Source: Porphyrobacter sp.
Lineage (GTDB): Bacteria > Pseudomonadota > Alphaproteobacteria > Sphingomonadales > Sphingomonadaceae
Assembly: GCA_016125555.1 (NCBI GenBank)
Contig: WGLN01000006.1
Location: 1-64,000 of the forward strand
DNA length: 64,000 bases
Direction of reading: 5' to 3'
Every line of letters begins with the position of its first letter. Within the stretch, counting starts at the first letter, position 1. Both the position numbers and the translations under genes were made by a program. This document shows, piece after piece, positions 16,027 through 34,559 of the stretch. The notes beneath the pieces were generated by a model. That model was not told the DNA's origin, did no database searches, and was given only the letters and a program-made list of their open reading frames with translations.

Positions 16027-18414
16027 TCACGGCAGCGCGTAGGCGATCACTTCGTCGCCGACCGGCGTCTCCATGAAGTGGTGCCCGCCCGCGTAGATCA
16101 CGACATATTGCTTGCCGCCCACCGAATAGGTCATCGGCGTGGCCTGTCCGCCGGCGGGAAGCACGTCGCTCCACAGCTGCTTGCCGGTCGCAAGGTCGAT
16201 GGCGCGGATCAGGTTGTCGGTCGATGCGGCGATGAAGATGAGGCCGCTGGCGGTCACCACCGCGCCGCCGTTGTTGGGGGTGCCGATGGTCACCGGCAGC
16301 ATCGAGGGGATGCCGAAAGGCCCGTTGGTGCGCGCCTCGCCGAAGGGGCGGTCCCAGATCGTCTTGCCGGTCGCCATGTCGATCGCGCGGATCCCGCCAT
16401 AGGGGGGTCGCTTGCACAGCAGCCCGGTGAAGGGCAGCCGCCAGCCGGCGTTGACGTTGACCGCATAGGGCGTGTTGGCCTGCGGCGAGCCCGCGCCCTC
16501 GTTCCCGCCGATCTCGCCGTTCGTCTGGTCGCGCGGCGTCCAGCCGCGCCTTTGCGCCACCTTGCGCGGGACCAGCCTGACATAGTTGGGCATGTCGTTG
16601 TAATTGGCGACGATCACCCCGCGCCGCGGATCGACCGCGATCCCGCCCCAGTCGGTCCCGCCGTTGTAGCCGGGATATTCGATCGAGTGGCGATCGGCGG
16701 TGGGCGGAGTGAAATAGCCGTCATAGGCGGCCTCGCGATACTGGATGCGGCAGACCATCTGGTCGATCGGGGTCATCCCCCACATGTCGCGCTCGGTCAG
16801 CGGCGGCTGGCGCAGCGTGTGCCAGCGCGACACCGGCTGGGTGGGGCTGCGCTCGGCGGGTTCGACCCCGCCCTGCGGCACCTTCATCTCGGCCACCGGG
16901 GTGAGCGGCTTGCCGGTGCGGCGGTCGAGCACGAACAGGTCGCCCTGCTTGGAGGGCAGGATCATCGCGGGCGTGCCCTTCCAGTCGACCAGCGTCGCCT
17001 GCGCGCCGAAATCATAGTCCCACACCCCCTTGTGCACCGCCTGGAACCGCCAGCGCGGCTTGCCGGTCGTGACATCGAGCGCGACCAGCGAGGTGGCGTA
17101 GAAATTCTCCGGCGGACGGCGCTTGCCCGACCAGTAATCGACCGAGGCATTGCCCATCGGCAGATAGACCAGCCCCAGCGCCTCGTCGCCGCTGGCGATG
17201 GTCCACATGTTGGGTGTGCCGCGCGCCCAGATCTGGCCCTCGGGCGGATAGCCGTCCCAGTCGGGGTGCATCATGTCCCATGCCCAGCTGAGCTTGCCTG
17301 TCTTGGCATCGAAGCCGCGGATCACGCCCGAGGGCTCCCAGCGGTTCTGTCCGTCGAGCACCTGGTGGCCGGTCACCACCACCCCGCGCACGATCGTGGG
17401 GGGCGAGTTGATCGAGACGTAGCCGGGCGGGGTGCGCCCCATGCCGATCTTGGTGTCGACCTCGCCATTGGTGCCGAAATCGCGGCACCGCGCGCCGCTG
17501 TGCGCGTCGATCGCGAAAAGCCGCGCGTCGAGCGTGCCGAAGATGATCCGCTGTGCGCACGGGGCGTTCGCCGGGGCGCCGGGCACCGCGTAGTAATCGA
17601 CCCCGCGGCAGGCGGCGGTGTAGGGGATCGCCTTGTCGGGCACCTCGGGATCGAAGCGCCAGCGTTCGCGCCCCGTCGCCGGATCGAGCGCGAGGATCTG
17701 GTCCTTGGGCGTGCAGACGTAGAGCGTGTTGCCGACCTTGAGCGGGGTGTTCTCCGCGCCGTAGGTGCCCTCTGCCGCTTTGGAAGGCAGGTCGCCGGTA
17801 TGGGTCAGCCAGGCGCGGTGAAGCTGATCGACATTGGCGGGCGTGATCTGGCCGAGCGGCGAGAAACGCCGGGCGCTGTAGCTGCCGCCATAGGCCGGCC
17901 AGTCCGCCCCCGGGCTCATCGGTGCGGGGTCGCTCGCGGTGTGGGCCAGCGCGGGAAGCGGCCCGCGCGCCGCCTGCGCGCCGTTATGGGTGAAGAACAC
18001 CGCGAAGACGGCGGCGAGCGCGACCACGCTGAGGCTCGCCCCGATCGACCAGCCCCAGCGGTGCGCGGCGCGGGTCAGCGTCGGCATCACCAGCAGGACC
18101 GCGATCAGCAGCAGCAGCGGTGCGAACAGGCGCGGCACCAGCGCCCAGCCATCGGTGCCGACCTCGGCCAGGGCCCAGATCAGGGTTCCCACGAAGATCG
18201 CGACATAGAGCCATGCGCCGATCATGTTGCCACGCCACAGCAGCACGCCCGAGGCGATCATCGCGATGCCGGTGATGACGTAATAGGCCGACCCGCCGAG
18301 CGATGCGAGCCACGCCCCGCCCGCGGCGAGCACCGCTCCGATGAGGACGAGGAGGACCGCGAGGACCCGCGCGGCGATGGAGTGGCGGTGGCTATCGGTA
18401 TCGGGCATGGGCAT
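16027..18414 (-). CDS. gcd: membrane-bound PQQ-dependent dehydrogenase, glucose/quinate/shikimate family
   Basis: A 795-residue enzyme with four to five N-terminal membrane helices (about residues 15-135) followed by an eight-bladed quinoprotein propeller in the periplasm. DWPAYGGSYSARRFSPL opens the propeller, and VHKGVWDYDFGAQ lies where the catalytic aspartate is found in Gcd. Such enzymes oxidise glucose (or quinate/shikimate) with PQQ and pass electrons to ubiquinone; the quinol oxidase genes directly downstream suit that. The start at 18414 (MPMPDTD) is preferred; 18408 is an alternative. The exact substrate is not certain, and no pqq synthesis genes are seen here. Confidence 0.9.
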   Translation of the reverse strand: MPMPDTDSHRHSIAARVLAVLLVLIGAVLAAGGAWLASLGGSAYYVITGIAMIASGVLLWRGNMIGAWLYVAIFVGTLIWALAEVGTDGWALVPRLFAPLLLLIAVLLVMPTLTRAAHRWGWSIGASLSVVALAAVFAVFFTHNGAQAARGPLPALAHTASDPAPMSPGADWPAYGGSYSARRFSPLGQITPANVDQLHRAWLTHTGDLPSKAAEGTYGAENTPLKVGNTLYVCTPKDQILALDPATGRERWRFDPEVPDKAIPYTAACRGVDYYAVPGAPANAPCAQRIIFGTLDARLFAIDAHSGARCRDFGTNGEVDTKIGMGRTPPGYVSINSPPTIVRGVVVTGHQVLDGQNRWEPSGVIRGFDAKTGKLSWAWDMMHPDWDGYPPEGQIWARGTPNMWTIASGDEALGLVYLPMGNASVDYWSGKRRPPENFYATSLVALDVTTGKPRWRFQAVHKGVWDYDFGAQATLVDWKGTPAMILPSKQGDLFVLDRRTGKPLTPVAEMKVPQGGVEPAERSPTQPVSRWHTLRQPPLTERDMWGMTPIDQMVCRIQYREAAYDGYFTPPTADRHSIEYPGYNGGTDWGGIAVDPRRGVIVANYNDMPNYVRLVPRKVAQRRGWTPRDQTNGEIGGNEGAGSPQANTPYAVNVNAGWRLPFTGLLCKRPPYGGIRAIDMATGKTIWDRPFGEARTNGPFGIPSMLPVTIGTPNNGGAVVTASGLIFIAASTDNLIRAIDLATGKQLWSDVLPAGGQATPMTYSVGGKQYVVIYAGGHHFMETPVGDEVIAYALP

Positions 18415-18801
18415 TCCAGTATTTCTCGCCCCGTTGTTTCTCGCCGCCACGCTTACGGGCGGCGGCAGGGCGGTGTTCCGCGGATTTGGGCGCCTGGGGC
18501 CGGTTCGGCAGGCGGGATCGGCTTAACGGGGCGGTCAGGTGCCCGAACCCACCGGTTTCAGCCACGCAGTTCGCTAACCTGGGTTGGAGACAAGGCGTGT
18601 CGGGCACGGGACGATGCGTGGTTGGGCGCGCAGCCCCGGCCGCGCCAGCAATCGGCTTTACCGTGCAGCTTTCGGGGCGAGCCGCGCCTTGCGGGTTGCG
18701 GCGCGGGCAACATCGTGGTTGCTGGTGCGTTCATCGTTCTCAGCACCGCGCGGCCTCCCTCCGCCTCGCCAGTCCCCGCCGCAAGGAGCAACGGCCCACC
18801 C
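18415..18801. other. Divergent intergenic region between gcd and the antiporter gene
   Basis: 387 bases with no gene I can support. It must hold both divergent promoters, but no convincing -35/-10 pair was found. One hairpin, CGCCGCC (18442-18448) with GGCGGCG (18458-18464), lies 28-50 bases upstream of the gcd start and could fold in its 5' leader. The rest is GC-rich without repeats or RNA genes that I recognise. Confidence 0.5.
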
Positions 18802-21285
18802 ATGCAGGAACAGGCGATCGTCATCGCGTTGGTGGGGGTGCTGGGCATCGGTGCGCAGTGGCTCGCGTGGCGCACCAACCGCCCGGCGATCGTGCTGATG
18901 CTGGGGGCGGGCTTCCTCGCCGGGCCGGTGCTGGGCGTCTTCGATCCCGAGCACGCCTTCGGGGGACTGCTCGAATCGATGGTCGCGATCGGGGTTGCGC
19001 TGGTGCTGTTCGAAGGCGGTCTCAGCCTCAATTTCGCAGAGCTGCGGCACACCAGCAACGCGGTGTGGCGCATGGCGACGATCGGGGTCGCGCTGGGCTG
19101 GCTGTTCGGCGCGCTTGCCGCCAACGCGATCGCGGGGCTGGTGTGGCCGGTGGCGGTGCTGTTCGGCGGCATCCTGGTGGTGACCGGACCGACGGTGGTG
19201 ATGCCGCTGCTGCGCCAGGCGACGGTGCAGCCGCGCCCTGCCTCGCTGCTCAAGTGGGAGGCGATCGTCAACGACCCCACCGGCGCGCTGTGCGCGGTCG
19301 CCGCCTACGAATATTTCCGCCTCTCGGCCGCCGGGGCGACCTGGATCGAGATCATCCCGCCGCTGCTGATGGCCGCTGCATTGGCGGGCGTGCTCGGCTA
19401 TCTCGCGGCGCGCTTCGTGGCCTGGGCCTATCCGCGCGGACTGGTGCCCGAATATCTCAAGGTGCCGGTGCTGTTCGTGATCGTCATCGCGCTGTTCGTC
19501 GTCTGCAACGCGATCGAGCACGAGGCGGGGCTGGTCGCGGTGACGGTGATGGGGGTCGCGCTCGCCAACATGAACGTCCAGTCGCTGCGCTCGATCCACC
19601 CCTTCAAGGAAACCGTGGCGGTGCTGATGGTGTCGGGCATCTTCGTGCTGCTGTCGGCCTCGCTCAAGTGGTCGGACCTCGCCTATCTCAACTGGCGCTT
19701 CGGGCTGTTCCTGCTCGCGCTGCTGTTCATCGTCCGGCCAGCGACGGTGCTGATCACCCTGCTGGGCACCTCGATCCCCTGGAAGGAGCGGCTGTTCGTC
19801 GCCTGGATCGCCCCGCGCGGGATCGTGCTGGTGGCGATCAGCGGGTTGTTCGCGCTGCGCCTCACCGAGCTCGGCTATGCCGATGGCAACGTGCTGATCG
19901 GCCTCAGTTTCGCGGTGGTGGTGGCGACCGTGCTGGCGCACGGCTTCACCGTCGATCTCGCTGCGCGGGTGTTCGGCGTGACCGGCGAGACGCGCCCGGG
20001 CCTGCTGCTGGTCGGCAGCACCCGCTGGACCATCGCGCTCGCCGAGTTGATGCGCGATTTGAAGACCCCGGTGATGATCGTCGATTCGAGCTGGCAGCGG
20101 CTCACCCCGGCGCGGCGCAAGGACCTGCCCTACTACCACGGCGAGATCCTCAACGAGGCGACCGAGCACAATCTCGATCTCACGCCCTACGAGGCGCTGG
20201 TCGCGGCGACCGAGAACGAGGCCTACAACACGCTGGTGTGCAGCGAGTTCGCCTACGAGATCGGGCGCGATGCGGTCTACCAGATCGGCGAGCCGGGGGA
20301 CGAGGACGATCCCCAGGCCATGCCCGAGGCGCTGCGCGGGCGGGCGCTGTTCGAATCCGGCTACGGGGTGGACGACATTTCGCAAAGGCTCGAACAAGGC
20401 TGGGAGCTGCGCAAGACCAAGCTTTCGGAAAACTTCCGCTTCGAGGATGCCAAGGACGTGCTGCCCCCCGCCGCCAACATGCTGATGCTGCTCAAGGAGG
20501 ATGGTCGCATGCAGTTCTTCACCCACGCCGCCCGCCCCAAGCCCGGCCCCGGCGACACCGTGATCAGCTTCGCCCCGCCCAAGGACCGTTCGGCCCCCAA
20601 GCGCGATGCCAAGCGCGACCCCAAGGGCGACCCGAAAGGCGCCAAGCCTGCGGCGAAGGGCGTCGCGATCATGCCTGTCGTGCTCGCCTGCGCGATGCTC
20701 GCCGGCTGCGACGGGATGCGGCAGGACCGCGCCCCCGCGCCCGCGCCCACCGCCAGCCCCTCGCCCGCGCCGTCCTCGATCGTGGCGCCGACCCCGACGC
20801 CGACCCCGACCTCGATCATGCGCCCCGACGTGATCGAACAGAGCCCGCCCCCGCCGCCCGCGCCGCCGCTGCACGTCACGATCGGCTTCGCGGAAGGCGG
20901 CGCCGAATTGTCGGAGGCGGCGGTCGCCAAGCTCGAGAAGATCCTCGCCAGCCCGCGACTTGCCGAGGGCGCCGAGCTTTACATCGGTGCGCACAGCGAT
21001 TCGGGCGGCAGCGACCGGGCCAACATGAAGGTCTCGCGCCAGCGCGGGCAGCTGGTGGAGGACTGGTTCGTCGCCCACGGCATCGCCGAGGACCGCATAA
21101 CGCTGGTCGCCTTTGGCGAGCAGAACCCGGTCGAGCCCAATGCCCTGCCGGACGGCACCCCGAACGAGGAAGGCCGCCGGGCCAATCGCCGGGTCGAGGT
21201 GCGGGTGATCGCTCCCGATGCGGACGCGGCGGACAAGGCCCCGGCGCGCGAGGCGACGCTGGTGGAGATGCTCGACGACCAGTAG
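18802..21285 (+). CDS. Na+/H+ antiporter (CPA1/NhaP-like) continuous with an OmpA-like lipoprotein domain
   Basis: An open frame of 827 residues. Residues 1 to about 395 form a dozen membrane helices of a sodium/proton exchanger, with FEGGLSLN, GPTVVMPLLRQ, NDPTGAL and APRGIVL as family motifs. Residues 396-590 are a TrkA-N-like nucleotide-binding domain. A Lys/Arg/Pro-rich stretch (594-620) follows, then MPVVLACAMLAGC (624-636), which looks like a lipoprotein signal end, a Pro-rich linker, and an OmpA_C peptidoglycan-binding domain (about 691-815, ending NEEGRRANRRVEVRV). No stop separates the two parts. Either this is a fusion, or the OmpA part starts independently at the ATG at 20671 (204 residues). 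Confidence 0.8.
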   Translation: MQEQAIVIALVGVLGIGAQWLAWRTNRPAIVLMLGAGFLAGPVLGVFDPEHAFGGLLESMVAIGVALVLFEGGLSLNFAELRHTSNAVWRMATIGVALGWLFGALAANAIAGLVWPVAVLFGGILVVTGPTVVMPLLRQATVQPRPASLLKWEAIVNDPTGALCAVAAYEYFRLSAAGATWIEIIPPLLMAAALAGVLGYLAARFVAWAYPRGLVPEYLKVPVLFVIVIALFVVCNAIEHEAGLVAVTVMGVALANMNVQSLRSIHPFKETVAVLMVSGIFVLLSASLKWSDLAYLNWRFGLFLLALLFIVRPATVLITLLGTSIPWKERLFVAWIAPRGIVLVAISGLFALRLTELGYADGNVLIGLSFAVVVATVLAHGFTVDLAARVFGVTGETRPGLLLVGSTRWTIALAELMRDLKTPVMIVDSSWQRLTPARRKDLPYYHGEILNEATEHNLDLTPYEALVAATENEAYNTLVCSEFAYEIGRDAVYQIGEPGDEDDPQAMPEALRGRALFESGYGVDDISQRLEQGWELRKTKLSENFRFEDAKDVLPPAANMLMLLKEDGRMQFFTHAARPKPGPGDTVISFAPPKDRSAPKRDAKRDPKGDPKGAKPAAKGVAIMPVVLACAMLAGCDGMRQDRAPAPAPTASPSPAPSSIVAPTPTPTPTSIMRPDVIEQSPPPPPAPPLHVTIGFAEGGAELSEAAVAKLEKILASPRLAEGAELYIGAHSDSGGSDRANMKVSRQRGQLVEDWFVAHGIAEDRITLVAFGEQNPVEPNALPDGTPNEEGRRANRRVEVRVIAPDADAADKAPAREATLVEMLDDQ

Positions 21286-21291
21286 GCGCGG

Positions 21292-22302
21292 CTAGGCGCG
21301 GCGGCGCGGCATCCGGTAGGGCAGCATGAACTGGACGAGGGGCGAGGAGAAGCGCCGCATGTCGAGGCTTTCCTGCACCGCGACCACCTCCTCGCCCGCA
21401 AAGCGCGAGGCCAGCTCGCTGCGCGCGTAGAAGGGCGTATCCTCCCAGGTGCGGCGCACCTCGGCCACCCCGATATCGGAGCGGGTGCGGCGCTCGACCC
21501 GCCACTTGCTCGGTGGCAATTGCGCGATCGGCGGCAGATCGACCGGCTCGGGCACGCCGCTGCGGTCGAACCGCAGCGCGCTGGCGAACAGCGACCCGTC
21601 GCCGCGCTCACCCTCGTAGCACACCGCTGCGCCTTCCTTCAGGTGCGCGCGCGACCAGTGCCAGGTGTTGAACCCCTTCTCGAGCGGCTCGGCCCCGCGG
21701 TTGTGGTCGAGATAGCCCCGGCCCTGCCACGCAATGCCCGGCGATTGCATCTCCACCTCGATCCGCGCGGCGGGCGCGAGGCAGTGCCAGATATGGCTTT
21801 CCCGCCCGTCGAGCGCGAAGGCGGCGCGGTTCAGGGCCTCGGGAAACACCCGCACCGTGCCGCGCACGCGGCGCTGCCACGGCACGAACAGGCGCGTGTC
21901 GCCCTCGTCGATGTCGATGGTGAGCGCCCCGCCCTCCCAGCGCACGCTGCTCGGGCCGATAACGAGGTTCGCCGCATCGCGCTCCACCGCGCCGCGGGTG
22001 CGCTCGGTCATCGCCCAGCGCGCCTGCGGGCCGTAGAGCGCGACGTTGAGCGCGCAGTGGTTGAGCGGATCGCTGCGCCCGCTCTTCTTGTAATAGGGCG
22101 AGAACACGCTGCCCAAGAAGGCGATGATCGTCAGCCCGTGCTGCCCGTCGTCGGAGATGGCGTCGACATACCACCAGGAATAGCCGCCGGGCGGGATCGC
22201 CTCGTCGAAGCGCGGTCCTTCGCGATCACCCGTGCTGCCAGCTGCCCGGACAAGGCTGCCATGGGCACCCCAGCCGCCGGATGGGTCGCGCCCCCGCTGC
22301 AA
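21292..22302 (-). CDS. crtC: carotenoid 1,2-hydratase
   Basis: CrtC adds water across the 1,2 double bond of acyclic carotenoids in the spheroidene/spirilloxanthin routes. Recognised from PPGGYSWWYVDAISDDG, LTIIAFLGSVFSPYY, NVALYG and the tryptophan-rich FNTWHWSRAH region. It lies directly behind crtD with a long overlap. The start is uncertain: the frame contains no ATG or GTG near the expected N-terminus. The only nearby upstream option is TTG at 22302 (336 residues, given here); a TTG at 22116 would remove the conserved GGYSWWYVDA segment. A GTG at about 22230 opens the crtD frame instead. The stop is 6 bases from that of the convergent antiporter/OmpA frame. Confidence 0.85.
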   Translation of the reverse strand: MQRGRDPSGGWGAHGSLVRAAGSTGDREGPRFDEAIPPGGYSWWYVDAISDDGQHGLTIIAFLGSVFSPYYKKSGRSDPLNHCALNVALYGPQARWAMTERTRGAVERDAANLVIGPSSVRWEGGALTIDIDEGDTRLFVPWQRRVRGTVRVFPEALNRAAFALDGRESHIWHCLAPAARIEVEMQSPGIAWQGRGYLDHNRGAEPLEKGFNTWHWSRAHLKEGAAVCYEGERGDGSLFASALRFDRSGVPEPVDLPPIAQLPPSKWRVERRTRSDIGVAEVRRTWEDTPFYARSELASRFAGEEVVAVQESLDMRRFSSPLVQFMLPYRMPRRRA

Positions 22303-23693
22303 TAGAGCCCGGGAAGCCGCGTCCTCGGCCCCTGCCGCTGGAAGGAAGCCGCCCAGCCGTGCGACGCTCTGCCATAGAGCGCGCCGCCCGTGGCCGGGAA
22401 CAGCGCCTCCCAGTCCTGCGGGGTCATCAGCCGGTGGGGGAAAGGGTCTTCCAGCATGAGGCCGCAGCGCCTCAGCGTGGCCGTCATGGCCCTTGTGCAT
22501 CGCTCTCTCTCCTCGGGGCTGTAGTGGTGGACGTCTCCGTCGGCGGGGGCGTTGACGATGATCTGGAGCCGCTCGCGGCCTTCGGGCGCGGGGTCGCCGG
22601 CACGCGCGCCGCGGTCCATCGCGCAGACATAGACGGTCGGCTCGGTGGGAGTGCGGCCGGCGCCGATGTCGCGGAACTCGGCGGCGTAATCGCGCGAGAA
22701 GAACACGTTGTGGTGGGTGAGGTCGAAGCCCGATGTGGCGGTGTGGGCATACCACACCAGCGCCGAGAGCGAGCGTTTGCCGGGCGGGATCGCCGGCACG
22801 GCGCGCGCCGCCGCTTCACCGAAGCGCCCGGTGGCGAGCGCGGACGGATCGCCGTTCATGATGACGATGTCGGCCGCGATGACCTCGCCGCTCACCAGCC
22901 TGACGCCGCTGGCGCGTCCATTGGCGGTCAGCACCTCCGACACGGCTGCGCCGGTGCGCACGCGCGCGCCCTGCCGCTCGCCCAGCCCGGCGAGCGCCTT
23001 CGCCAGCGCATGGATGCCGCCCTCGATCAGCCACACCCCGCGCGCCTCGAGATGGGCGATCAGCATCAGCGTGGCGGGCGCGGCGAAGGGCGAGGAACCG
23101 CAATAGGTGGCATAGCGCCCGAACAATTGCTGCAGCCGCGGATCGGCGAAATGCGCGCCCAGCGCGGTACACATCCGGTCGAAGGGCCGCATGGCGAGCA
23201 GGTCGCGGACCTTCCACGGCCCGATCCGCCACATCATCGGGAAGGGGGTCGCGGCCTTGCCGCCGCGCAGGAACGGGCCCTCGAGCACCTCGAAGATGCG
23301 CTGCGCCTCGGCGGCGAAGGCGCGGTAGCCGGACGCCGCCGCGGGTCCGGCAAAGGCACCCACGGCCGCGGCGCTTCGTTCCGGGTCGGCGAAGAGGTCG
23401 AGATGGCCCGCCGCGTCCCAGGCGTGGCGGGCGAGAACTTCGGCACGGGCGATGCTCACATGGTCCTCGAGCCGCTCCCCGCAGGCGGCGAAGACCTCGT
23501 CGAACACGCTGCGATAGGTGAAAACGGTCGGGCCGCCGTCGATCTCCGCGCCGTCGAGGCTCACGCGCCGCGCCTTCCCGCCGACCCAGGCTTCCTTTTC
23601 GAGCACGATGACCTCGCAGCCGCGGGCGGCGAGCAGCGCGGCGCTGGTCAACCCGCCGATACCGGCCCCGATCACGGCGACTCGTCCGCTCAC
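22131..23693 (-). CDS. crtD: methoxyneurosporene/hydroxy-carotenoid 3,4-desaturase
   Basis: A 520-residue FAD-dependent desaturase that introduces the 3,4 double bond after CrtC. The N-terminal dinucleotide fold is VAVIGAGIGG at residues 5-14, followed by KEAWVGGKARRVSLDG. The C-terminal phytoene-desaturase signature PGLYCSGGATHPAAGVPMAA is intact. The GTG at 23693 is chosen because GGGGAGGA lies directly upstream; an ATG at 23765 would add 24 unrelated residues and overlap the PpsR operator. It shares a promoter region with the divergent crtF. The last 20 or so codons overlap the crtC frame. Confidence 0.93.
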   Translation of the reverse strand: MSGRVAVIGAGIGGLTSAALLAARGCEVIVLEKEAWVGGKARRVSLDGAEIDGGPTVFTYRSVFDEVFAACGERLEDHVSIARAEVLARHAWDAAGHLDLFADPERSAAAVGAFAGPAAASGYRAFAAEAQRIFEVLEGPFLRGGKAATPFPMMWRIGPWKVRDLLAMRPFDRMCTALGAHFADPRLQQLFGRYATYCGSSPFAAPATLMLIAHLEARGVWLIEGGIHALAKALAGLGERQGARVRTGAAVSEVLTANGRASGVRLVSGEVIAADIVIMNGDPSALATGRFGEAAARAVPAIPPGKRSLSALVWYAHTATSGFDLTHHNVFFSRDYAAEFRDIGAGRTPTEPTVYVCAMDRGARAGDPAPEGRERLQIIVNAPADGDVHHYSPEERERCTRAMTATLRRCGLMLEDPFPHRLMTPQDWEALFPATGGALYGRASHGWAASFQRQGPRTRLPGLYCSGGATHPAAGVPMAALSGQLAARVIAKDRASTRRSRPAAIPGGMSTPSPTTGSTG

Positions 23694-23746
23694 CCGTCCT
23701 CCCCGTAGGTCCGTCGCGACAATATCATTGACCTTGTCACTCCATC

Positions 23747-23764
23747 TGTCCAATTGTTTAGACA
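23747..23764. promoter_or_regulatory. PpsR operator (TGT-N12-ACA) between crtD and crtF
   Basis: TGTCCAATTGTTTAGACA is a perfect TGT-N12-ACA palindrome-type site for PpsR/CrtJ, in the gap between the divergent crtD and crtF. On the + strand a TTGTCA (23734-23739), 17-base spacer and TTTAGA (23757-23762) make a plausible crtF promoter whose -10 lies inside the site. On the - strand TTGGAC within the site could be the crtD -35. Binding by PpsR would therefore block both genes. Confidence 0.85.
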
Positions 23765-23788
23765 TATGCCCCGCGAAAACTCCCGCTC

Positions 23789-24913
23789 GTGACCGATTGG
23801 ACGGCCATCTGCACCGGCTGGATCGCGCGCCGCAACCGGGTTTTCGCCAGTCCCCGCTTTCAGCACTGGGCCGCGCGCCTGCCGCTGATCCGCCGCATCG
23901 CGCGCAGCCGCGCCGACGCCGCCTTCGATCTGCTCGCAGGCTTCGCCTATTCGCAGGTCCTGCGCGCCTGGGTCGAGGGCGGACTGTTCGACATCCTGCA
24001 AGACGGCCCCTTGCCCGCCGCGACAGTCGCCGAACGCATGGCGCTGAGCGAGGAGGCGGCACTCACCCTGCTGCGCGCCGGCCGCGCGCTGACGCTCGCC
24101 GAGGAAGCCGGGCCGGACCGCTGGATGCTGGGCGAACAGGGCGCGGTGTTCGCCGCCAATGCCGGCGTGCAGGCGATGGTGCGCCACCACCGGCTGCTCT
24201 ATGCCGATCTTGCCGATCCGCTGGCGCTGCTGCGCGCCGATCGCAAGGAGCCGACCGCGCTGTCGCGCTTCTGGACCTATGCCGGGGCGCTCCACGGGGC
24301 GGGCGAGCGGGGCGAGGACACAAGCGAATATTCCGAGTTGATGGCCGCCTCGCAGCACATCGTGGCGGACGAGGTGCTCGCCTCGGTCGGGTTCCGCGAT
24401 GTCCGCCGGCTGCTCGATGTCGGCGGGGGGCACGGCGCCTTCCTCAAGGCGATCGGCAGCGCCTGGCCGCATCTCGAACTCGGGCTGTTCGACCTGCCCG
24501 AAGTGGCGGAAAAAGGCGGCGCAGTGCTCGCCGAGGCGTTCGGTGCGGCGCGCGTTACGGCGCACCCGGGCAACTTCTTCAGCGACCCGATTCCCGCAGG
24601 CTACGACATGGTGTCGCTGATCCGGATCCTCCACGATCATGACGACGAACCCGCACAAGCCCTGCTCGCCAATATCCGCGCCAGCCTCGTCCCCGGCGCG
24701 CGGCTGCTGATCGCCGAGCCGATGGCGCGCATCCCCGGCGCCGAGCCGATGGGGGAGGCGTTTTTCGGGCTCTACCTGTGGGCGATGGGATCGGGCCGTC
24801 CGCGCAGCCCGGCCGAAATCACGGCGATGCTGACCAAGGCGGGTTTCACGCAGGCTCGGGTCGTCGCAACTGCGCAACCGGTCAACGCAAGCGTGATTAT
24901 TGCACAGGCCTGA
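23789..24913 (+). CDS. crtF: hydroxyneurosporene O-methyltransferase
   Basis: A 374-residue S-adenosylmethionine-dependent methyltransferase that methylates the 1-hydroxyl formed by CrtC. The SAM-binding motif LLDVGGGHGAFL begins at residue 208, and DMVSLIRILHDHDDE is the catalytic region of the plant-type O-methyltransferase family, with the histidine expected for the general base. An N-terminal dimerisation domain (about 40-140) precedes it. The start is GTG at 23789. It is the first gene of the + strand array ahead of bchC, from which it is separated by its own PpsR site and promoter. Confidence 0.93.
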   Translation: MTDWTAICTGWIARRNRVFASPRFQHWAARLPLIRRIARSRADAAFDLLAGFAYSQVLRAWVEGGLFDILQDGPLPAATVAERMALSEEAALTLLRAGRALTLAEEAGPDRWMLGEQGAVFAANAGVQAMVRHHRLLYADLADPLALLRADRKEPTALSRFWTYAGALHGAGERGEDTSEYSELMAASQHIVADEVLASVGFRDVRRLLDVGGGHGAFLKAIGSAWPHLELGLFDLPEVAEKGGAVLAEAFGAARVTAHPGNFFSDPIPAGYDMVSLIRILHDHDDEPAQALLANIRASLVPGARLLIAEPMARIPGAEPMGEAFFGLYLWAMGSGRPRSPAEITAMLTKAGFTQARVVATAQPVNASVIIAQA

Positions 24914-32868: not shown

Positions 32869-33351
32869 TCAGCCGAAGGGTGCGTTCAATTCGACCACCG
32901 CCCAGTTGAGCGCCCCGGCAAAGCTCACCCAGGCGAGGTAGGGCACCAGCAGCGCCGCCGCGGTGCGCGAGAAACGCCCGCAATAGATCATCAGCACGAT
33001 GATCGAGAGCCACAGCAACACCAGCTCGCCGAAGGCCCAGTCGGGGCGCTGCAGCCGGAAGAAGATCAGGCTCCAGGTGATGTTGAGGAAGCCGTTGGCG
33101 GCAAACAGCCCGATCACCCATTCCGATGCCGCTGCGGTCGGCGCCTGCCGCCAAGCGGTGATCGCGGAAATGGTGATGAGCGCATAGATCAGCGTCCAGC
33201 CCATCGGGAACACCACGTCGGGCGGGTTCCAGGCCGGTTTCGCCAGCGCCTGATACCACGGCCCCAGGTCGGTGATGGTCGCGCCCAGCGCCGCCACGCA
33301 CAGTGCCGCGACGGTCGCCACGGTCACCGGCAGGATCATCATTCTGTTCAT
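32869..33351 (-). CDS. tspO: TspO/MBR family outer-membrane tryptophan-rich sensory protein
   Basis: A 160-residue five-helix membrane protein of the TspO/peripheral-benzodiazepine-receptor family (CrtK in older literature). LGPWYQALAKPAWNPPDVVFPMGWTLIYAL is spread over the first loop and helix and is the family signature; NFLNITWSLIFF-like and LVPYLAWVSFAGALNW segments follow. In Rhodobacter, TspO exports or senses tetrapyrroles and dampens photosynthesis gene expression through the PpsR/AppA route. It lies 11 bases after bchP on the same strand, so it is part of the bchG-to-tspO array. Confidence 0.93.
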   Translation of the reverse strand: MNRMMILPVTVATVAALCVAALGATITDLGPWYQALAKPAWNPPDVVFPMGWTLIYALITISAITAWRQAPTAAASEWVIGLFAANGFLNITWSLIFFRLQRPDWAFGELVLLWLSIIVLMIYCGRFSRTAAALLVPYLAWVSFAGALNWAVVELNAPFG

Positions 33352-33362
33352 GGGCCGGCGGT

Positions 33363-34559
33363 TTAGCGCGTCGCGGGCCTCAAGCCTAGCAGGTGCGCGG
33401 TGTCCTTGATGAAGATCTTGACGTGCGCCATCGGCCGCGCGCGCACCAGCTTCTTGTGCATGTAGGCCTGCCAGGTCAGCTCCTGCACGTCCTTGTCGTC
33501 GCACATGGTGACGAAGCGTTCGCGCCGCTTGTCCGAGGAATACCAGAAATACTGCATGATCCCGAGCACCCAGAACACCCGGCCGTGCTCCTTCATGAAG
33601 GTCTTGCGCGCGCTGCGCAGGTGCCGCGCCTCGCCGGTCCTGAGAAATGCGCCCGCGGCCTCGGCCACCAGCCGCCCGCCGACCATCGCGTAATAGATGC
33701 CCTCGCCCGAGGCCGGGGCGACGATCCCCGCGGCATCGCCCGCGACGATCACGTCCGCCCCGTTGTCCCAGCGCTTCAGCGGCTTCAAGGGGATCGGCGC
33801 GCCCTCGCGGCGCACGGTCTCGCAGCGCGCGAGCCCGAGATCGTCGCGCATCGTGGCGATCGCGCCGCGCAGGGAGAAGCCCTTGTTGGCGCTGCCCACC
33901 CCGATGCTCGCGGTCTCGCCGTGGGGGAACACCCAGGCATAGAAATCGGGCGAGAGGCGGCCCTGGTAGAAGACGTCGCAGCGCGAGGCGTCGAAGGCCT
34001 CCGAATTGCTCTCGGGCGACTTGATGATCTCGTGATAGGCGAACACGCAAGGGACGCGCTCGGCACCCGGAAGACACTGCTTGGCGACCGCCGAACGCGC
34101 CCCGTCGGCGCCGATGACGACGCGCGCGCGCACGCTCTCGAGCGGCCCGCCGCGGCTGCGGCGAAAGGTGACGATGGGGTGGGGCTGGTCGTCGCGCTCG
34201 ATCTTCTCGAAGGTCGCGGTGAGGCGTTCGGCGCCCGAATGGCGCGCGCGTTCGCGCAGCCATTCGTCGAACTCGTCGCGATCGACCATGCCGACATAGC
34301 CGATCTCGCCCACCGGCATGTCGACCGCGCGCCCCGAGGGCGCGATCATGCGGGCCGAGCGCGCCTTCGCGACCAGCAGCGACTGGGGAATGTCGAAATC
34401 CGCGAGCAGGCGCGGCGGCACCGCGCCGCCGCAGGGCTTGATCCGCCCGCCGCGCTCGAGCAGCAGCACCGAATGGCCCGCCAGCGCGAGTTCGGTCGCA
34501 GCGGTCGAACCCGAAGGCCCGCCGCCGATCACCACGGCGTCATAGATCGTCTGGTTCAT
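33363..34559 (-). CDS. bchP: geranylgeranyl diphosphate/bacteriochlorophyll reductase
   Basis: A 398-residue FAD-dependent reductase that saturates three double bonds of the geranylgeranyl tail of bacteriochlorophyll to phytyl. The dinucleotide fold VVIGGGPSGSTAATELA is at residues 9-25, and IKPCGGAVPPRLL, GVGSANKGF and DAAGIVAPASGEGI are hallmarks of the BchP/ChlP family. The ATG overlaps the stop of the PucC-like gene (ATGA). It acts after BchG, encoded two genes upstream. Confidence 0.96.
   Translation of the reverse strand: MNQTIYDAVVIGGGPSGSTAATELALAGHSVLLLERGGRIKPCGGAVPPRLLADFDIPQSLLVAKARSARMIAPSGRAVDMPVGEIGYVGMVDRDEFDEWLRERARHSGAERLTATFEKIERDDQPHPIVTFRRSRGGPLESVRARVVIGADGARSAVAKQCLPGAERVPCVFAYHEIIKSPESNSEAFDASRCDVFYQGRLSPDFYAWVFPHGETASIGVGSANKGFSLRGAIATMRDDLGLARCETVRREGAPIPLKPLKRWDNGADVIVAGDAAGIVAPASGEGIYYAMVGGRLVAEAAGAFLRTGEARHLRSARKTFMKEHGRVFWVLGIMQYFWYSSDKRRERFVTMCDDKDVQELTWQAYMHKKLVRARPMAHVKIFIKDTAHLLGLRPATR

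Follow-up and report, generated by a model that had tools for sequence, protein, structure and literature searches.

A Na+/H+ exchanger gene fused to an OmpA lipoprotein gene in Porphyrobacter: a probable polyprotein with an internal lipoprotein signal

One locus of Porphyrobacter sp. raises the question of whether an ion exchanger and an OmpA-like lipoprotein can be encoded as a single polypeptide chain and, if so, what becomes of that chain. The locus lies in a stretch of 64,000 nucleotides (assembly GCA_016125555.1, contig WGLN01000006.1, positions 1 to 64,000), hereafter called the window, in which positions 18802-21285 of the + strand form one open frame of 827 codons, from the ATG at 18802 to the TAG at 21283-21285. 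A preliminary description of the window had claimed that an exchanger frame runs here without a stop into an OmpA domain and constitutes a true fusion. The claim holds, and the same frame is found in three other genomes and in database proteins. The start at 18802 is also shared with the fused relatives, all of which begin with MQE(Q/E)A in the alignment. The exchanger gene and the lipoprotein gene are fused, and we consider it probable that their product is a polyprotein, which would have arisen by the merger of two neighbouring genes and would be cut at an internal lipoprotein signal.

Along the frame, a Na+/H+ exchanger is followed by a TrkA_N domain, a Lys/Arg-rich spacer, a short hydrophobic stretch, a LAGC lipobox with Cys636, a Pro-rich linker and an OmpA-like domain, all on the + strand; the spacer, the lipobox with its Cys636, the linker and an in-frame ATG at 20671 (residue 624) are as previously described. 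The membrane domain (Na_H_Exchanger, residues 21-385, 18862-19956) matches its Pfam model at 2.1e-32 with 112.9 bits against a cut-off of 26.2, and the nucleotide-binding-type TrkA_N domain behind it (residues 402-481, 20005-20244) at 5.7e-7 with 30.3 bits against 23.8. N157-D158, which we take to be the ion-site motif of CPA1 exchangers, is invariant in the aligned fused rows, exchange activity being predicted from the domains only. The spacer (residues 593-619, 20578-20658) was delimited from the alignment and from the tails of separate exchangers. Sequence and alignment place the putative internal lipoprotein signal, composed of the hydrophobic stretch and the lipobox, at residues 620-636 (20659-20709, Cys636 at 20707-20709), that is, near residue 620 of 827 and not at the N-terminus of the chain. 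The Pro-rich linker, delimited from the aligned fused rows, spans residues 637-690 (20710-20871), and the OmpA-like domain residues 696-786 (20887-21159; Pfam 1.2e-12, 48.4 bits against 27.2). D733, N741 and R748 of this last domain are invariant across the fused rows, and D733 and R748 presumably are the peptidoglycan-binding Asp and Arg, as in Pal/OmpA. S671, I672 and R674 of the linker are likewise invariant; they belong to an S-I-[MIF]-R motif (residues 671-674, 20812-20823) that sits in an otherwise drifting linker and can be recognized by eye in many of the separate lipoproteins.

The preliminary description had raised a sequencing error that hides a stop or frameshift near 20580-20670. 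The genome of the window is indeed a draft in 20 contigs (3.07 Mb, 99.99% complete), but no stop interrupts the fusion in three additional genomes or in database proteins of various origins, which refutes an error of sequencing or assembly and leaves it practically out of the question. The unbroken exchanger-OmpA arrangement occurs in two metagenome-assembled genomes, those of Erythrobacter sp. MSM4 (locus L034, genome G028) and Sphingomonadales bacterium BRH_c3 (L035, G015), and in Erythrobacter fulvus sf7 (L036, G068), which is titled as a strain. These three are the fused ones among the named loci of a genome scan limited to the 80 best of 277 places. An unbroken match from the exchanger through OmpA was found in 3 of 61 near genomes (G028, G015 and the window's own, G000). 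At the genus level the exchanger was present in 54 of 114 genomes at E <= 1e-100 and the match unbroken in four (G000, G028, G015 and G068); for 37 of the 54 the DNA itself was read, and the other 17 were judged from the match table only, where a match that ended before residue 690 or held a stop was counted as non-fused. The exchanger is patchy in this genus, 60 of the 114 genomes having no match at that threshold. In a family-level sample, judged by the match table, 70 of 199 genomes had the exchanger (E <= 1e-200) and only G000 had it unbroken. Two further candidates with long open frames and no stop within the match, G095 and G124, were rejected on reading their DNA, which shows a stop (TGA and TAG) and then a separate lipoprotein. 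A protein search with residues 575-827, restricted to long proteins and scoring the 7992 candidates that shared most words, returned the window's protein and eight others. All three domains (exchanger, TrkA_N and OmpA) are present in seven of the eight. The eighth, P0008 (515 amino acids), has TrkA_N and OmpA behind a foreign N-terminal domain (PF08543); it is probably a contig misjoin or misassembly and was left out of the trees and the alignment. The 11 fused rows analysed below include both P0004 and L035, which are near-identical.

Elsewhere the two parts are separate genes. After five loci whose exchanger is identical to that of another row (L034, L035, L077, L114 and L124) had been removed, 116 loci were sorted into 106 separate, 4 fused, 5 without a same-strand OmpA match (the distant exchangers L020-L024) and 1 in which the stretch has no exchanger (L025). 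The comparison with orthologues thus bears out the expectation that exchanger and OmpA protein are normally encoded by two genes separated by a stop. In the separate loci the OmpA gene lies directly behind the exchanger gene, and in 62 of the 105 that have a possible OmpA start, the first such start overlaps the exchanger stop as ATGA (or GTGA). This type of overlap is present too in L038, the sister of the fused clade. In such an overlap the two genes are in different frames; if this state is ancestral, turning the stop into a codon would not have sufficed for the merger, and a small insertion or deletion would have been required. The lipoproteins of these loci have a strict lipobox in 91 of 106 cases and a looser one in 102, and the remaining four (L007, L052, L071 and L104, picked by eye) have a Cys after a hydrophobic stretch. 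The steady pairing of the two genes suggests that their products share a function in envelope or salt homeostasis. Behind an S-F-x-P site, the separate exchangers carry tails with a median of 29 residues, 6 Lys/Arg and 3 Asp/Glu (n = 97), and the Lys/Arg-rich spacer of the fused protein is taken to descend from such a basic C-terminal tail. The spacer is 12 residues longer in the window than in the other fused rows and has a KRD/KGD-like repeat.

All 11 fused rows form one clade, with a FastTree support of 100 in a tree of 122 exchangers (leaving out the five duplicates and P0008) and 100/100 in IQ-TREE on 15 rows. The single clade implies one old merger, which on this evidence took place between an exchanger gene and an OmpA lipoprotein gene in the ancestor of one Erythrobacter subclade. 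Identity of the OmpA domains within the clade averages only 68% and falls to 50%, implying that the merger has been kept for long.

The junction retains the make-up of a lipoprotein signal. As described in the passages of two sources cited here, such signals have a positive n-region, a short h-region (PMC9360617) and the lipobox consensus [LV][ASTVI][GAS]C (PMC8048626), and this description fits the fused rows. All 11 rows have Cys636, and 10 of them match the strict lipobox. The uncharged run before the Cys has 13-16 residues, compared with a median of 15 (range 4-24, automatic count) in the separate orthologues, and the 13 residues before the Cys have a mean hydropathy of 2.16-2.67, similar to that of the exchanger helices (1.15-3.65). 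The 30 residues before the Cys contain 4-7 Lys/Arg in 10 of the rows and 3 in P0009, together with 1-2 Asp/Glu. LspA (PF01252) and Lgt (PF01790) each have one match in the window's genome.

At the same place the former start of the lipoprotein has decayed in part of the clade. Its position was placed by eye on the alignment. The start is kept as Met-Lys in 5 of the 11 rows (L034, L036, P0002, P0003 and P0009), and its ATG is replaced in the other six: by Val621 in the window, where GTC at 20662-20664 stands in the place of the ATG of L034 and L036, by Ser in L035, P0004 and P0007, by Ala in P0005 and by Gly in P0006. In L035 the codon is AGC, and no ATG, GTG or TTG occurs from residue 587 to a GTG at residue 614, inside the hydrophobic stretch. 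Loss of the old start is a single change in 75% of 200 bootstrap trees. A separate start lost while the signal is kept is the outcome predicted by a cut polyprotein. The ratio of nonsynonymous to synonymous substitution rates (dN/dS), a rough measure here because dS exceeds 1, is 0.19-0.34 over spacer and signal for the six pairs of the four fused DNA sequences, while it is 0.16-0.26 over OmpA. The former values imply that the junction is translated and under purifying selection; together with the lack of a stop in every fused row, they strongly imply that the joined frame is translated.

The two ends of the chain appear to belong on opposite sides of the inner membrane. With 13 helices, N-terminus out and C-terminus in, 9 Lys/Arg of the exchanger fall inside and 1 outside, the helix limits being those of a low-confidence model. 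By this charge pattern, both TrkA_N and the basic spacer would be cytoplasmic, as is presumably to be expected for TrkA_N from known CPA/RCK proteins. The limits come from an AlphaFold prediction on a 12-row alignment with a mean predicted local distance difference test (pLDDT) score of 41 (mostly 60-89 in the OmpA part and mostly 26-49 in exchanger and TrkA_N); they were used solely for charge and hydropathy counts, the model being too poor for fold comparison. OmpA domains bind peptidoglycan in known relatives. With TrkA_N expected on the cytoplasmic side and the OmpA domain necessarily outside, residues 620-635 would have to cross the membrane; the same had been pointed out for the stretch 620-634, and it follows from the sides of the two domains.

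We propose the following explanation. The exchanger gene lost its stop and joined the frame of the OmpA lipoprotein gene behind it, as seen at the level of sequence. The 13-helix exchanger would insert with TrkA_N in the cytoplasm, and the basic spacer, being the exchanger's tail, would stay inside and serve as the n-region of the signal. Residues 620-635 would then act as an internal lipoprotein signal, spanning the membrane and taking the OmpA part to the periplasm, where Lgt would add diacylglycerol to Cys636 and LspA would cut before it. One translation product would give the exchanger (residues 1-635, 68.4 kDa) and a lipidated OmpA protein (residues 636-827, 20.2 kDa) in a ratio of 1:1. 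Judging from the kept lipobox and the length of the signal, lipidation and cutting at Cys636 seem likely. For the fuller proposal, a natural polyprotein cut by LspA, in which the exchanger tail doubles as n-region and the lipoprotein's own start has since been discarded in part of the lineage, we put the chances at about even. The preliminary description had envisaged the fusion as a link between an ion exchanger and the cell wall. Its fusion stands, but a lasting link is not the likeliest end state, as the signal length and the clade-wide Cys point to a cut before Cys636.

Several observations weigh against a cut polyprotein. P0005 has LFGC, which breaks the strict lipobox at position -2. Within the clade the signal is no better conserved than the spacer (identity 0.58 against 0.59), implying that only the signal pattern is kept, and the group of rows with a lost ATG is weakly supported (48/81 in IQ-TREE). 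To our knowledge, LspA-cut signals are known only near N-termini, and a membrane and globular part of 620 residues ahead of the signal is unusual. Finally, a Shine-Dalgarno-like site in three of the four fused DNA sequences, considered below, makes separate synthesis of the lipoprotein possible. If the chain were not cut at all, residues 620-635 would be a 14th helix and the OmpA domain would hold the exchanger to peptidoglycan in the manner of MotB, with the Cys lipidated or not. The single frame and the retention of D733 and R748 agree with such a tether; PsaB of 7f4v is a recorded case of a polytopic membrane protein that ends in an OmpA-like domain, and the best 19-residue hydropathy around the signal (1.43-1.93) is inside the range of the exchanger helices (0.92-2.60). 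A tether would not need the Cys, however, which persists in every row despite drifting flanks, the uncharged run is just 13-16 residues long, and the genome has both LspA and Lgt; we therefore regard the uncut chain as quite unlikely. A frameshift or premature ending during translation, which would also separate the products, finds some room in shifted-frame stops that occur somewhere in residues 586-650 of all four DNA sequences. Yet the only such stop of the window is at residue 587, ahead of the spacer, and a search for one type of site, the slippery heptamer X XXY YYZ, found none in residues 586-640 of the four, so that this route appears very improbable.

The remaining alternative is that most OmpA protein comes from a start of its own. 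The preliminary description had considered an independent lipoprotein from ATG 20671 and remarked that its signal would be without positive charge, which is correct: no Lys/Arg lies between this ATG and the Cys, and the positive n-region and short h-region exist for the fused chain but not for a chain begun there. Among the separate orthologues, by automatic counts, an n-region without Lys/Arg is found in 1 of 105 from the first possible start, and in 17 of 102 when counted up to the Cys from the last possible ATG, which is deliberately harsh. The start at 20671 was rejected; its pairing with the Shine-Dalgarno complement is weak (-4.7), and residue 624 is Leu in the other fused rows except P0009 (Met), so it is not the ancestral start. 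A start at GTG 587 was also rejected, being present in 2 of the 4 fused DNA sequences and GTC in the others. A better candidate, overlooked previously, is the in-frame ATG at 20509 (residue 570), with AAGGAGG at 20494-20500, 8 nucleotides before it (the site spanning 20494-20511, +). Starting here, translation would possibly give a pre-lipoprotein of 258 residues with a long basic presequence of 66 residues, cut at the same Cys; it could be the main source of OmpA protein, with the fused chain a by-product or cut as well.

Shine-Dalgarno pairing before this ATG reaches -11.6 in the window, and AAAGGAG gives -8.7 in L034 and -8.0 in L035. No other in-frame ATG of these three frames has a 5-nucleotide Shine-Dalgarno core (GTG codons with such a core number 3, 1 and 1, respectively), and Met570 is found in 11 of 11 fused rows against 32 of 106 separate exchangers, the rest having Leu or Ile. 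On the other side, L036 lacks such a site (-2.8), though its old ATG is still there, and comparable pairing is common: -8.2 or better occurs at one in ten codon positions of the window's frame, and -8.0 is reached at the residue-570 place in 8 of 106 separate exchangers. The site of the window exceeds the background of -8.2, whereas those of L034 and L035 do not clearly do so, and the site may owe its presence to chance within a coding sequence. An internal start could not release the exchanger, which lacks its own stop, and the fusion remains in any case. We consider such mixed output unlikely, and prefer the cut polyprotein.

Both halves of the fused protein are ordinary families. Its exchanger has the domain order and membrane part of CPA1 antiporters with TrkA_N (PF00999 and PF02254), and the solved structures closest to it in sequence are those of Na+/H+ antiporters (4czb and 4cza), which we take to be of the NhaP type; the potassium/proton antiporter models of NCBIfam stay far below cut-off (best 116.8 against 355 bits). 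Separate CPA1 orthologues end after the nucleotide domain and basic tail, whereas the fused frame continues. With Pal/YiaD-type OmpA lipoproteins, whose separate orthologues adjoin the exchanger gene, it shares lipobox, Pro-rich linker and OmpA domain, but its OmpA part has no gene start of its own and its signal is internal. The best NCBIfam lipoprotein match, YiaD_Gzip_OmpA, scores 64.2, well short of its cut-off of 175.

A precedent for a polytopic protein that is joined to a partner's signal peptide and cut is FbcH of Bradyrhizobium, a polyprotein of cytochrome b and cytochrome c1 that is cut at an internal signal peptide by signal peptidase I. In both cases the frame of a polytopic membrane protein runs on into the signal peptide of an exported partner, which otherwise has a gene to itself. 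For the pair studied here, the parts are separate at 106 loci and joined in one frame in four genomes. Unlike FbcH, with its signal peptidase I and cytochrome partner, the lipobox here predicts Lgt and LspA and the partner is a lipoprotein. An OmpA-like domain also ends the inner-membrane proteins MotB and TssL, found as model or structure matches, and PsaB of 7f4v, which we take to be that of Gloeobacter. MotB and TssL have a membrane topology in which the OmpA-like domain is uncut, and we know of no lipobox between the membrane and OmpA-like parts of MotB, TssL or PsaB. In the cited portion of a report on Gloeobacter photosystem I, the PsaB model covers only residues 3-727, and peptidoglycan is not mentioned (PMC9000952). 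A search of open-licence literature returned no report of an antiporter-OmpA fusion, nor of a lipobox, cut or otherwise, inside a polytopic protein.

The surroundings of the fused gene look like the edge of a photosynthesis/carotenoid cluster. The fused gene and a convergent carotenoid 1,2-hydratase gene (CrtC-like, below the NCBIfam cut-off) have their ends 6 bases apart; the latter is followed by CrtD (above cut-off), and hydratase and CrtD both lie within 21292-24062 (-). An O-methyltransferase is located at 23789-24913 (+) and a TspO-like match, below cut-off, in 32872-34263 (-). On the other side, a PQQ-dependent dehydrogenase of the glucose/alcohol type (16027-18450, -) is divergent to the fused gene. 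A conserved place beside carotenoid genes was not found: four neighbour proteins, two of them trimmed, had no tblastn match at 1e-10 within about 4 kb on each side of six loci (L034, L035, L036, L038, L041 and L045).

Since Erythrobacter fulvus sf7 is a named strain among the fused members, a direct test is feasible. Were the chain to prove uncut, the result would be an ion exchanger attached to the cell wall, an unusual arrangement as well. If it is cut, LspA and Lgt would be capable of acting on a signal preceded by hundreds of residues of a polytopic protein; the rule that lipoprotein signals are N-terminal would be loosened, and internal ones would be missed by annotation tools. The relatives form a natural series, from two genes, often with an ATGA overlap, through a fused frame with the old start kept to a fused frame with the start lost, in which the making of a bacterial polyprotein may be followed step by step.

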